From NCBI GenBank assembly GCA_029248525.1, contig JAQWJE010000049.1, positions 799,836-863,835 of the forward strand: a stretch of DNA of 64,000 bases, written 5' to 3'. The notes under the pieces were generated by a model, which ran no database searches, was not told where the DNA came from, and saw only the letters and a program-made list of their open reading frames with translations. Of this stretch, positions 33,481 through 47,268 are shown one piece after another (the stretch's first letter is position 1; each line of letters opens with the position of its first letter). Position numbers and translations under genes: made by a program. This DNA comes from Candidatus Binatia bacterium (GTDB lineage Bacteria > Desulfobacterota > Binatia > UBA12015).

Positions 33481-35703
33481 ATGAGCACCTCGGAAGCAGC
33501 CGTGGATTCGCCGGCACCTCGCCACGTCGTTTGTACGATCTGTGACATCGGCTGTCAGATGCGCGCGGAGTCTGAAGACGGGCACCTGACCCGGATTCGC
33601 CCTCACGAAAACCCGATGTTGGCAAAAAACATTTGCTACAAGGGAACTGCCGCGCCGCATATTCACAATCACAAGGATCGCCTGCGCCAGCCTCTGAAGC
33701 GCGTCGGGGAACGCGGCGCGGACCAATGGGAGGAGATCTCCTACGCCCAGGCGATGGATGAGATCGCCGAGCGCCTCGGCAAGGTGGTGGCACAATATGG
33801 CCCCGAGGCTTTTGCCGTTTCCACCTCGGGCTGGAACACCCAAACCACTCATAGTCTTGACCGCAGATTCATGAATCTGCTTGGCAGCCCCAACTGGACC
33901 AGCGGCGTTTCGCTCTGTGCGGGGAATACCGCAGCCGTCAATCGGATGACTTACGGTTGGTTCCCGATGCCGGACTTCGGCAGCACGAATTGCATCGTCC
34001 TCTTCGGCCACAACCCGCGCAAGCATTCCTGGACACCGATCTACAATGCGATCAATAGCGCGCGTGCACGCGGTGCCAAGGTCATCGTGCTCGATCCGCG
34101 GATCTCGGATCAGGCAGAAGTCGCCGATTTGCACCTCCGCCTTCGCACCGGAACCGATGCGGCGATGTGCCTCGGTTGGCTCAAGGTGATCATCGACGAG
34201 AAGCTCTACGACGAAGATTTCGTCCGCGATTGGTGTGTCGGATTTGAAGAATTGCGCCAGCGAGTCGACGAGTACCCGCTCGAGCGCGTCGAGGAGATCA
34301 CCGGTGTGGATCGCGAACTGATTGCGGAAGCAGCGCGGGTCTATGCGACCGCCGACGGTGCCGTGATCCCCTGGACGCCGATCACCGATCAGCAGATCTC
34401 GTCGACCTCGGCGATTCGATTACATTCCATCCTGCGTGCGCTCACAGGCAATCTCGATATCGTCGGCGGCGAGACGCTCGGTGGTTTCAATCCCGATTAT
34501 ATTCCCGAGTCCGAAATCGGCATGCACGATGCCATCGCACCCGAGCAGCGCGCCAAGCAACTCGGCTACCAGGATCATCCAGCCTATACCTACCGCGTGG
34601 CCGAGATGTTGCGCGAGCCCACCGAGAAAGTCTGGGGCTATCCGTGGGCGGATATTGTCATGGGCTGTCAGATGGCGAACCCCTCGGATCTTTTCCGTGC
34701 CATGGATACCGGGGACCCCTATCCGGTGAAGGCATTTTTCGCTCTCGGCAATAATGCGCTTCTGAGCTATCCGAACCAGCATCAGATCCACCGTGGCATG
34801 CTGAATCAGGATCTGATTGTGGCCCACGAGATCTTCATGACGCCGACCGCGATGTTGGCCGATTATGTTTTGCCGGGGGACGTCTTTACCGAGCGGAATC
34901 ACGTGGCGGATAGTTGGAGTTGGACCACGCGACTGACCTTGTCACAAAAGGTTGTCGACCCGCCCGCCGAGGCCAGCAGCACCTTCGAGTTCTGGACAGA
35001 CCTCGCGCACCGGATGGGCTTCGGAGAGCATTTTCCCTGGAAGACGCTCGAAGACATTCTGGATTATCGTCTGTCGCGCTCGGGGCGAACGTTCCGCGAC
35101 TTCGAGGCGCAGACCTTTATGGAAGCGCGACCGCCGGAGTTCCGGAAGTACCGCAAGAAGGGGTTTGCAACACCGTCGGGGAAAGTCGAGCTCTCCTCCA
35201 GTGTTCTGGACGACCTTGGCTTCGACCCCTTGCCCTATCATCGCGAAGGTCCGACGCCGACCGCGGAATTCCCTTACCGGGTTTTCACCGGGGTCCGGGA
35301 GGACGCCTTTTTTCAGACCGGCCAACGCGGCGTGGAGGTCTTGCGCCGCAAATCTCCGCTTCCCAAACTCTTCCTGCACCCCACCGACGCGCAAGCCGAG
35401 GGGCTGTCGGATGGGGACTGGGTGCGGCTGGAAACGGAAAACGGACACGTCACTGCCTTGCTCTCGGTGCAGCCCTCGATGAAGGAGGGACACATCCGTG
35501 TGCCGCATGGGTGGTGGTATCCCGAGCTGCGCGGCCACGAGCCGCTGGCCGGCGCTTTTCTCTCCTCCGATGCGGTCCTCTGCTCGGATACCAACGACTT
35601 GCTCGATCACGAACAGGGGATCCCTCACTTCAAGGGCTTCCCGGGCCGAATTATGGCCAGTGAAGCGCCCGAGCATCTGCCGCGCATGCTGAATCGAGAG
35701 TAG
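33481..35703 (+). CDS. Molybdopterin-dependent oxidoreductase with N-terminal [4Fe-4S] site (DMSO reductase family)
   Basis: 740 residues. Cys18, Cys21, Cys25 and Cys52 (CTICDIGC ... NICYKG) bind a [4Fe-4S] cluster. Cys146 in SGVSLCAGNT is in the position of the Mo/W ligand. FGHNPRKHSWT, VIVLDPR and the C-terminal molydopterin-dinucleotide-binding domain (LFLHPTDAQAEGLSDGDWVRLE) complete the family. No Tat signal was seen, so it is likely cytoplasmic and needs an electron partner not encoded next to it. The substrate is unknown; it follows the SDR by 54 bp. Confidence 0.9.
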   Translation: MSTSEAAVDSPAPRHVVCTICDIGCQMRAESEDGHLTRIRPHENPMLAKNICYKGTAAPHIHNHKDRLRQPLKRVGERGADQWEEISYAQAMDEIAERLGKVVAQYGPEAFAVSTSGWNTQTTHSLDRRFMNLLGSPNWTSGVSLCAGNTAAVNRMTYGWFPMPDFGSTNCIVLFGHNPRKHSWTPIYNAINSARARGAKVIVLDPRISDQAEVADLHLRLRTGTDAAMCLGWLKVIIDEKLYDEDFVRDWCVGFEELRQRVDEYPLERVEEITGVDRELIAEAARVYATADGAVIPWTPITDQQISSTSAIRLHSILRALTGNLDIVGGETLGGFNPDYIPESEIGMHDAIAPEQRAKQLGYQDHPAYTYRVAEMLREPTEKVWGYPWADIVMGCQMANPSDLFRAMDTGDPYPVKAFFALGNNALLSYPNQHQIHRGMLNQDLIVAHEIFMTPTAMLADYVLPGDVFTERNHVADSWSWTTRLTLSQKVVDPPAEASSTFEFWTDLAHRMGFGEHFPWKTLEDILDYRLSRSGRTFRDFEAQTFMEARPPEFRKYRKKGFATPSGKVELSSSVLDDLGFDPLPYHREGPTPTAEFPYRVFTGVREDAFFQTGQRGVEVLRRKSPLPKLFLHPTDAQAEGLSDGDWVRLETENGHVTALLSVQPSMKEGHIRVPHGWWYPELRGHEPLAGAFLSSDAVLCSDTNDLLDHEQGIPHFKGFPGRIMASEAPEHLPRMLNRE

Positions 35704-35990: not shown

Positions 35991-37067
35991 TTATTCGAAG
36001 AGTTTGGTGGGGTCGCTCAGGTCGAGTTCCGTATCGCGAGGACTATCGTGGGTGTTGGCCGAGCCACCGAATTTGTTCAAGCCAAGTTCGTCACGGAATT
36101 CACCGGTAGCCGCACGAATCCGATCGTCGAGAGGAATGCCGGTGGCGTCGGCGATCCGCACGAGGCCATTGAAAATTCCAACGGTCGCGGCGGCCTCCAC
36201 GAAGGCTTCGGGGCCGACGGCCTCGATCAGTGCCTGACGGGTAGCAGCGAGCTCGGTGCTGCCACGAGTTGCAGCCTCGGCGAACTCACGGAGCTCATTT
36301 CCGTGGGGGACCCCGCCGTCACCTTCACCGATGGTGCCGTTCAGATCCGCTTGCTCCCCGATGGCTTCGCTGCTCGCACGGAGCAGCATCACATGAGAGG
36401 TCGTTCAATAGAAGCATTCGTTGATCGACGAAACGCGGGCGGCCACCAACTCCACTTGTGGTCGACTGAGGGGTCGATCCCATACCAGAGTGTTGAAGTC
36501 CTTGGCGCCATACATCGCCCCGACCACAAAGAAAAAAGCCATCTGATCACCGGGCGCCAGACTGAGGGCCCGGGCTACGTTGGGGCCCGTGAACGGGTCG
36601 GTCATCACGACATGGGCACCGATATCGGCCAGACCATCGGGTCGGCTTCCATCGGGTTCCCCGTCACGCGGCGTCGGCATGGGTTCGTGGTCGATGCCCA
36701 TCGCCTCGGCAAAGGCATCGGCAGCCGTCGTGAACGCCAGGATGCCGACGATTTCGATATACGCCACATCCCCCAGAACATCGATCATCCGGTGCGCCCA
36801 GGCGCGATCGATCTTGTGGGCGTCGGCGGCGATGGTGGTCGCCAACTCGCAGGCCTCCGATGTGATCTCGACCTCGGTTTCGGGCAGCTCTCGCATCCAT
36901 GGTGGCTGGTCGCGTTGTGCGCGGGCGGCACGACCCAAGCTGGCCAGCGCGACTCGTTGGGCACCGGTGAAGCGGGCGCCCGGGCCTGCCAGTCGCTCCC
37001 ATGCCATGGCGCGTGCCTGCAGGATATCCTCCCGGATCGGGATCTTCGTCATATCGGTTCCGGGCAC
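35991..37067 (-). CDS. Putative AhpD/carboxymuconolactone-decarboxylase-like selenoprotein (CxxU)
   Basis: The minus strand reads 220 codons from GTG 37067 (or ATG 37052) to a TGA at 36405-36407 and continues in the same frame for 137 further sense codons to 35991, giving 358 residues if TGA is selenocysteine. At the junction the protein is NECFY-U-TTSHVMLLR: Cys218 and U221 form CxxU where AhpD-like proteins have the redox CxxC followed by a helix with His. Both sides look like one protein: an alpha-helical CMD-type core (AFFFVVGAMYG, VSSINECFY) and a conserved-looking C terminus (AATVGIFNGLVRIADATGIP). A 7-bp hairpin follows the TGA. AhpD-like CxxU selenoproteins are known. Predicted role: peroxide or thiol redox reaction in the cytoplasm. 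No sel genes are in the window. Confidence 0.75.
36369..36387 (-). promoter_or_regulatory. Bacterial SECIS-like hairpin downstream of the in-frame TGA
   Basis: GCTGCTC (36387-36381) pairs perfectly with GAGCAGC (36375-36369) around the loop CGTGC. It begins 17 nt, and its loop 24 nt, after the TGA, and the second loop base is G. These values fall within the published loose model for bacterial SECIS elements (loop 16-37 nt from UGA, a G in the first two loop bases). Confidence 0.6.
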
Positions 37068-37171: not shown

Positions 37172-39346
<2,175 letters not shown>

Positions 39347-39494
39347 ATGCGGTGCTCCATGCGCTCGGCGAAGTCGGCAACAGGCCGCTCCCTTCCCGTG
39401 TTGATAGGTCAATCCGATAGGACTGTTCAAGCGAATACGGGATCTCGCGAGAAGAGTTCGGCCTGTCTCGCCCTTGCTTGTCGCGCGCCTCCGG

Positions 39495-45015: not shown

Positions 45016-47268
45016 GTGTCTCCATTTTTCACATGGAAACCCGGTAGCGCAGGCCTCAGGGTTCGAGTTTTCTCACGCCCCGAGACGCCGTTGCCACGAC
45101 TGAGCTGCTTGTCCATCCTGACAATCTTGGTCTTCGTGCACATCATGACTGTCGGGGCCGCCGCTGCCGAAAATCATTGTCTCTCTGCACTTCGCAAGGG
45201 CTACGCGAAGGTTGTCTCGATGGAGGGAAAGGAAAGCGGGCGATGCCTCGCGTTGGCCGCGAACGGGAGGCTTGGATTTCCGCCGACTCTCGCCGCCTGC
45301 AGCGCAAATGACCCCCGCGGCAAGATCGCCCGGGTTGCGGCGAAGGCTTTGGGAAGCGAGATTGCCGCTTGCCGCAGCGAGAGTCTGCCGGCATTTGCCG
45401 TGCCCGACCTCGATGGTGAGCCCTGGTCGCCCGGCAGCGGGGCGAGCTTCAGTGGCGCGATGAGCGCCGCGGCCGGGGCGCTGGATACGCAGTTATTTTC
45501 GGTCCTGCTCGGGGCAGATTTCGACAGCGCGGTGGTCTTGCGCCGATCGATAAATTTCCAGACGCCCGGGGCGCGTATCAACCCGCTCGCCGCAAAGTGC
45601 CAGGGTAAGGTGGTAACCACGGCACAGAAGTGCGTTGCGGCGAAGTTGGCGGCGTTTGACCAGTGCGCGGCGACGAGCCTGCGGGCCGTGGGCGACGGGT
45701 CCGCCCTGATCACTGATTGTATGGCCAGCGCGGCCGGTGGTCAGCCCGATGCGAACGGGAGTCTTCAGCGGCGCTGCGAAAGCAAGGTTGAAAAAATCGT
45801 CGATCGACTCTGCGTGCGTCGCAACGTCGATCTTGGGGCCACTTTTCCGGGCGTGAGCGGGTGTCCGGGAGGCGCGGGTGATTGGGCGAGCTGTCTGGAC
45901 CAACGCATCGATTGTGCAGTCTGCGAATCGCTGGAAGTGGCAACATCGCTTGGAATCCCCTGCGATCTTTTCGACGACGGAGTCTTGAACCAAAGCTGCG
46001 GGCCGACCCCGACCGCGACGCCGACCGCGACGCCGACGCCGACGCCGACCCCGACACCGACGCCGACCGCGACCGCGACGCCGACCCCGACCGCGACGCC
46101 GACGCCGACCCCGACCGCGACGCCTACCGCGACGCCGACGCCGACCGCGACCGCGACGCCGACGCCGACCCCGACCGCGACGCCTACCCCGACCGCGACC
46201 GCGACTGTGACCCCCGCACCCACGCCAATTCTCGAGCTTGATCTCGAGGGGTTCCTCCCTCGGTCGGGTGGTCCCGGTTCGGAACCCTTCCAACGCCTTG
46301 CGGTTTCCGAAGAAGATGAGGTCAATCAGGGCATCGGAATCCGATATAACGGAGACGATGATGACGATGATGGCGTCAACGACTACGGCGACAATAGCGT
46401 CGCCAACGAGAACGATCTGATCGAGGTGGCTCTCACGCTCGCCGGACTCCCGGAGGGCGCCACCCTGCAGCTCGCACGGAGCGCCGCTTCATTACGGCTT
46501 TGGTCGAGCGCCACGAAGGGCAACGGTGTGCTTGTCGACGAGGCCTCGACCACGCTATCTCTCGCGGCTGGCACGACGACATTCTTTGCCGAACTCGTTG
46601 CCCTGGACGCAGCGGACCTGACAGTTTCGGTTATTGATACGATCAGTGGGAACGTGGTTGCGAGCGATGTCCTGCGCTTCCGCCCCTTCGCGAGCCTGGT
46701 GATCGGGCTCGACGGTGAGTTCCTCACGCCAAGCGATCCGCCAAGCGGTCTCAATTCGGGGATTGCCGAGATGAGCGTCGCCCTTCGGGCGCTCGGGTAC
46801 GATTCTCATATGTATGCCGAGAGTGTGGTCGACCCGACAGGTTCCGGCGAACTCTACGACGAGATCGTCTCCGCGGTTCAGGATCGGGGAGTCACTGAAA
46901 TTGCCTGCATTGGTTTCAGCCATGGCGGGGGGTCCTGCCATGATGTTCTCGCCAAGCTGAGCGCGGATGGTGTCGGGGGCTTCACGGTACCGTTTACCGC
47001 CTATATTGATGGAATTTCCAATGCGAGCGACCTCACGACTCTGGCGGAGGACCAGTTACCAATCGGCAGCGCGTATCATGTCAATTTCTATCAGACGAAT
47101 ATTTTCACGCCGCTGTGGATCTGGGGTACGTCGATCCCCGGCTCGGTGGTGGACGTCAATGTGAACAATACAACTTGGGGTGCAGGCGTACTGCACATTA
47201 CAATTACGGAAGCCGAGGAAGTGCAGCTCGGGATCCTCGTGCCGCTGATCAACGAAGTCGCACGGTAA
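45016..47268 (+). CDS. Secreted protein: Cys-rich module, Pro-Thr linker and C-terminal lipase-like domain
   Basis: 750 residues if GTG 45016 is the start; a TTG at 45091 just before [23 protein letters not shown] is an equally good signal-peptide start. About 50-320 is a Cys-rich helical module with paired K/C spacing, ending [15 protein letters not shown]. Then a Pro-Thr-Ala linker of about 70 residues, an acidic beta-sandwich-like segment, and a final domain with [16 protein letters not shown], a serine-hydrolase elbow (GFSHG), near 635. Catalytic Asp and His could not be assigned. The Cys-rich module recurs in the PI-PLC-like protein 1 kb on. Likely extracellular; function unknown. Confidence 0.72.
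46003..46227 (+). repeat. Low-complexity Pro-Thr-Ala coding repeat
   Basis: Degenerate hexamers of the type CCGACC and GCGACG repeat over about 225 bp and encode a PTPTATPT-type linker. The region is purine-poor on the plus strand and gives long Arg/Gly shadow frames on the minus strand. Confidence 0.9.

Follow-up and report, generated by a model that had tools for sequence, protein, structure and literature searches.

A stretch of 64,000 nucleotides of Candidatus Binatia DNA (the window) contains a gene that almost certainly encodes a member of the AhpD-related family NF041238, in which an in-frame UGA would be read as selenocysteine (Sec) through a downstream hairpin to give an AhpD-type redox protein. 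The gene is located as follows:

35991..37052, minus strand: AhpD-related selenoprotein gene of 353 codons, Sec predicted at residue 216; assigned from the NF041238 match, an alignment with 21 homologues and an AlphaFold2 model
35991-35993, minus strand: TAA stop of the selenoprotein gene
36405..36407, minus strand: predicted Sec codon (UGA) for the U of CxxU within ECFYUTTSH, with TGA at the equal column in 29 of 29 members read

The list of open reading frames shows two minus-strand ORFs that share a reading frame: 36405-37067 (220 aa, with ECFY at its end) and 35991-36392 (133 aa). The TGA at 36405-36407 separates ECFY from TTSHVML, and when it is counted as a residue a single frame of 358 aa results. 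The initial annotation had described these two in-frame halves with correct coordinates and flanking letters, and the division of the gene that it expected from standard annotation is indeed what the ORF list contains. Its product of 358 residues is obtained from a GTG at 37067, which places Sec at residue 221; however, the ATG at 37052, giving 353 aa and Sec at 216, is the likelier start. In a scan of the window, codon usage past the TGA was still that of coding DNA, and a search of the genome revealed no second copy of the gene.

The read-through product matched NF041238 (AhpD_rel_CFYUT) with 300.7 bits over model positions 1-355 of 357, above the curated whole-protein cut-off of 175 bits (NCBIfam), whereas each half alone fell under it (152 bits for positions 1-238 and 111 bits for positions 245-355). 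A chance juxtaposition is excluded: the segments of the model matched by the two halves follow one another, and conservation after the TGA equals or exceeds that before it (identity to relatives of 37-51% versus 27-38%). Similarly, the N-terminal piece matched Pfam CMD (PF02627) weakly, at 15 bits and below the cut-off, and the joined product reached 29 bits, above it. The CFYUT motif with its in-frame TGA is present as ECFY-TGA-TTSH, and the 29 members read are alike save for small changes (CFF, CRY). At the level of sequence, the gene, its Sec codon and its family are established. The call of an AhpD-like CxxU selenoprotein was correct, but NF041238 had by then been curated as a family of selenoproteins. 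It first appeared, as 'hypothetical protein 1', in the 2005 Sargasso Sea selenoproteome, where it was represented by four sequences with CxxU (PMC1088965), and a 2026 review lists the 'AhpD-related protein (hypothetical protein 1, Sargasso Sea metagenome)' as NF041238, with CxxU (PMC13188914). The gene is therefore a further member of a catalogued family whose Sec and motif were also known before.

The window protein shares with NF041238, the alkylhydroperoxidase-related (seleno)proteins, the full-length match, CFYUT, the TGA at the Sec position and the downstream SECIS-type hairpin, but it scores about 300 bits where most members found reach 400-480, and it has a C-terminal tail of its own. 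The short AhpD-like CxxU selenoproteins (COG2128 / TIGR01926; PMC1088965, PMC13188914) also carry CxxU in an AhpD-type domain; however, they are about 180-230 aa long, lack the N-terminal half and score much lower against NF041238. Against the TIGR01926 peroxidase-related enzymes the window protein obtained 35 bits, below the cut-off of 81.8. In many genomes of the class there are additional short AhpD-like genes, each containing a single in-frame TGA (e.g. G400:C1:652697-653275 and G472:C78:83739-84122), which are probably the known short CxxU selenoproteins.

The family searches covered 395 genomes from the phylum, 148 from the class and, for the class to which an alphaproteobacterial homologue (L021) belongs, 385. 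All 87 members that scored above the cut-off and spanned the site had one in-frame TGA (one of them also had two TAG codons): 37 in the window's class, two more in the phylum and 48 in the class of L021. Three further matches above the cut-off end before the site and are uninformative about the TGA. The codon-level placing of the TGA covers the 29 members read out of the 87, and in every one of them it is the U of C-x-x-U. No cysteine version of the full-length family was found in the phylum, the class or the class of L021, and plasmid records yielded no homologue. A pattern-based scan of contigs recovered one relative only, the whole-genome family searches being far better. One member, L069 (G483:C13:3102-4145), has two in-frame TAG codons plus the TGA and may be a pseudogene or the result of misassembly. 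The initial annotation had anticipated homologues with a conserved C-terminal half and a Cys at the site; the first part was borne out, but the codon found there was TGA instead of one for Cys. Nor do the homologues end at this point, since they keep both the TGA and the C-terminal half.

These data bear on two simpler readings of the TGA. If it were an ordinary stop, the gene would be a truncated pseudogene with a decaying remnant as its C-terminal half, and its division into two ORFs by standard annotation agrees with this. However, the TGA stands at the equal codon in all the members read, from many families and another phylum, the codon usage remains coding beyond it, and comparisons of closely related pairs show purifying selection on the C-terminal half (dN/dS after the TGA of 0.12-0.27, similar to the part before it). 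A conserved TGA followed by a conserved protein in distant relatives refutes this reading, and we consider it extremely improbable. The TGA could also be a sequencing or assembly error for TGC or TGT, the genome being a draft assembly in 59 contigs; yet TGA was present in every homologue read and neither TGC nor TGT was found. Since 86 other genes have an in-frame TGA, a single-base assembly error is very unlikely.

If the UGA is decoded as Sec, a recoding signal is expected close downstream. The bacterial SECIS model has an apical loop of 3-9 nt with a G in its first two positions and a stem of 4-16 bp, 16-37 nt from the UGA (PMC13188914). The window gene contains a structure that agrees with this model (loop CGUGC, 7-8 bp, 24 nt):

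36369..36387, minus strand: hairpin of the bacterial SECIS type, with CGUGC as apical loop on a GCUGCUC/GAGCAGC stem, loop start 24 nt past the UGA

A hairpin was observed at the expected place in 28 of 30 sequences, with the loop starting 24-25 nt past the UGA, a stem of 6-8 bp and loops of CGUGC, CGUGU, CGGGA or similar. The two exceptions were L021, with a weaker stem, and the short distant relative L078, with a different one. Across 26 sequences, 96.7% of the cells were paired and 10 cells had changed on both sides; this covariation was higher than in 500 of 500 shuffles, and slid partners were 26-54% paired. Because the hairpin stretch also encodes the conserved LLRxS, we carried out a synonymous recoding test, in which an equally long stem appeared in 1.9% of the recodings of the window gene and in 1-14% of those of six other genes. 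Downstream of the TGA the folding energy was ordinary (z of -0.4), and Rfam gave no SECIS match in this region. In keeping with the selenoprotein call, a SECIS-type hairpin with compensatory changes thus sits past the TGA. A second near match to the hairpin sequence, with 3 mismatches, lies at 46467-46485 on the minus strand (GGCGCTCCGTGCGAGCTGC); the scan showed no TGA candidate there.

The genes that the initial annotation had named for a genome check, selA, selB, selC (tRNA-Sec) and selD, are all present in the window's genome. selB (C35:75600-77486, 332.6 bits) adjoins selA (C35:77552-78877, 540.6 bits); selD (C14:50477-51415, 265.5 bits) lies within a 745-aa open frame (L010) and is therefore probably part of a fusion with a further domain; and tRNA-Sec is found at C49:227932-228024 (70 bits), with the anticodon TCA according to ARAGORN. 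selA was detected in 18 of the 19 carrier genomes tested, and also in the alphaproteobacterial genome of L021. It was not found in carrier G450 (99% complete), which a gap in the draft genome could explain. The predicted insertion of Sec at residue 216 follows from the machinery together with the conservation. The idea that TGA encodes an ordinary amino acid throughout the genome, for which only the open continuation of the frame through the TGA speaks, has a negligible probability, since 12 of 24 long ORFs of the window end at TGA in a mechanical ORF list, the Sec machinery is present, and the one other strong case in the TGA scan of the window is a place where one gene ends and another begins further on in frame. 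Two scans of the window gave no other convincing Sec candidate, the thresholds of the first missing even the known case.

The AlphaFold2 model, in which Sec was modelled as Cys, predicts a single helical protein over both halves (mean pLDDT 90.9, pTM 0.91), confident over nearly the whole length, and places Sec216 close to the beginning of helix 214-230. Sequence profiles and Foldseek related the C-terminal half to the AhpD-type structures 6k40, 3c1l, 2oyo and 2prr, the Foldseek matches having modest E-values (0.015-0.05) at a probability of 1.0. A Foldseek search with the whole chain showed a weak likeness to Sestrin2 (TM 0.38-0.44, E of about 1). In 22 sequences Glu201, Cys213, Sec216 and His220 are invariant, and Tyr215 is nearly so. 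The five-residue proton relay of PA0269 consists of Glu36, Cys48, Tyr50, Cys51 and His55, and its counterparts in M. tuberculosis AhpD are Glu118, Cys130, His132, Cys133 and His137 (PMC3141380). The spacing of Glu201-Cys213-Tyr215-Sec216-His220 is identical to that of PA0269, and to that of M. tuberculosis AhpD except for the Tyr, which is His132 there. The TGA was therefore rightly placed at the second Cys of the AhpD-type redox CxxC, followed by the His. By analogy, Sec216 would correspond to Cys133 and Cys213 to Cys130. The C-terminal helical fold and the Glu-Cys-(His/Tyr)-Cys-His spacing are shared with M. tuberculosis AhpD, PA0269, 3c1l (mlr4105) and 6k40 (D. radiodurans AhpD), but the window protein differs from AhpD-type proteins in having Sec for the second Cys, about twice the length and an additional helical region at the N-terminus.

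In 22 of 28 members the N-terminal half contains a further CxxC (as in CALCRERK); this motif is common among NF041238 members but not known to be defining. It is absent from the window protein, L021 and L071-L074, which group together in the tree (support 97/93), although this grouping is tentative because of long branches (L020, L021, L025). The chances are about even that these proteins are a separate Sec subfamily within NF041238, in which the N-terminal redox CxxC was lost or never present, so that the active-site chemistry would differ between two Sec-only paralogous lines. The missing N-terminal CxxC is the only feature that is new here, and mildly so.

The selenoprotein gene adjoins a molybdopterin oxidoreductase gene of opposite orientation, and upstream of it lies the following gene:

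37172..39430, minus strand: PQQ-dependent methanol/ethanol-family dehydrogenase with a C-terminal cytochrome c domain (TIGR03075, 680 bits)

The molybdopterin oxidoreductase (33481-35703, plus strand) is related to the formate dehydrogenase alpha subunit (TIGR01591, 315 bits, below the cut-off) and apparently contains Cys, not Sec, given LCAGN at the presumed Mo-ligand site. Apart from the gene itself and a generic short-chain dehydrogenase, the neighbourhoods of 15 homologues had almost nothing in common with this locus; they contained no counterpart of the PQQ dehydrogenase and no conserved neighbour hinting at a redox partner. The gene context was therefore rejected as an indicator of function, and the proximity to a PQQ alcohol dehydrogenase, which had been put forward as new, carries no evident meaning.

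Taken together, we propose that the UGA at 36405-36407 is decoded as Sec when the hairpin 24 nt downstream recruits SelB with Sec-tRNA-Sec. The product would be all-helical, with an AhpD/peroxidase-related domain as its C-terminal half, where Sec216, at the start of its helix and second in CxxU, would have Cys213 as its partner, and Glu201, Tyr215 and His220 would form the proton relay. The redox activity and its substrate are inferred: the protein would most likely carry out hydroperoxide reduction or disulfide exchange through a selenenylsulfide intermediate.

Standard gene callers would split this gene, and calls of an in-frame TGA made from raw sequence can be right. The window's class seems to be rich in selenoproteins. 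The family is widespread in this class and in the Alphaproteobacteria and is Sec-only in everything searched here; selenium therefore seems hard to replace in it.
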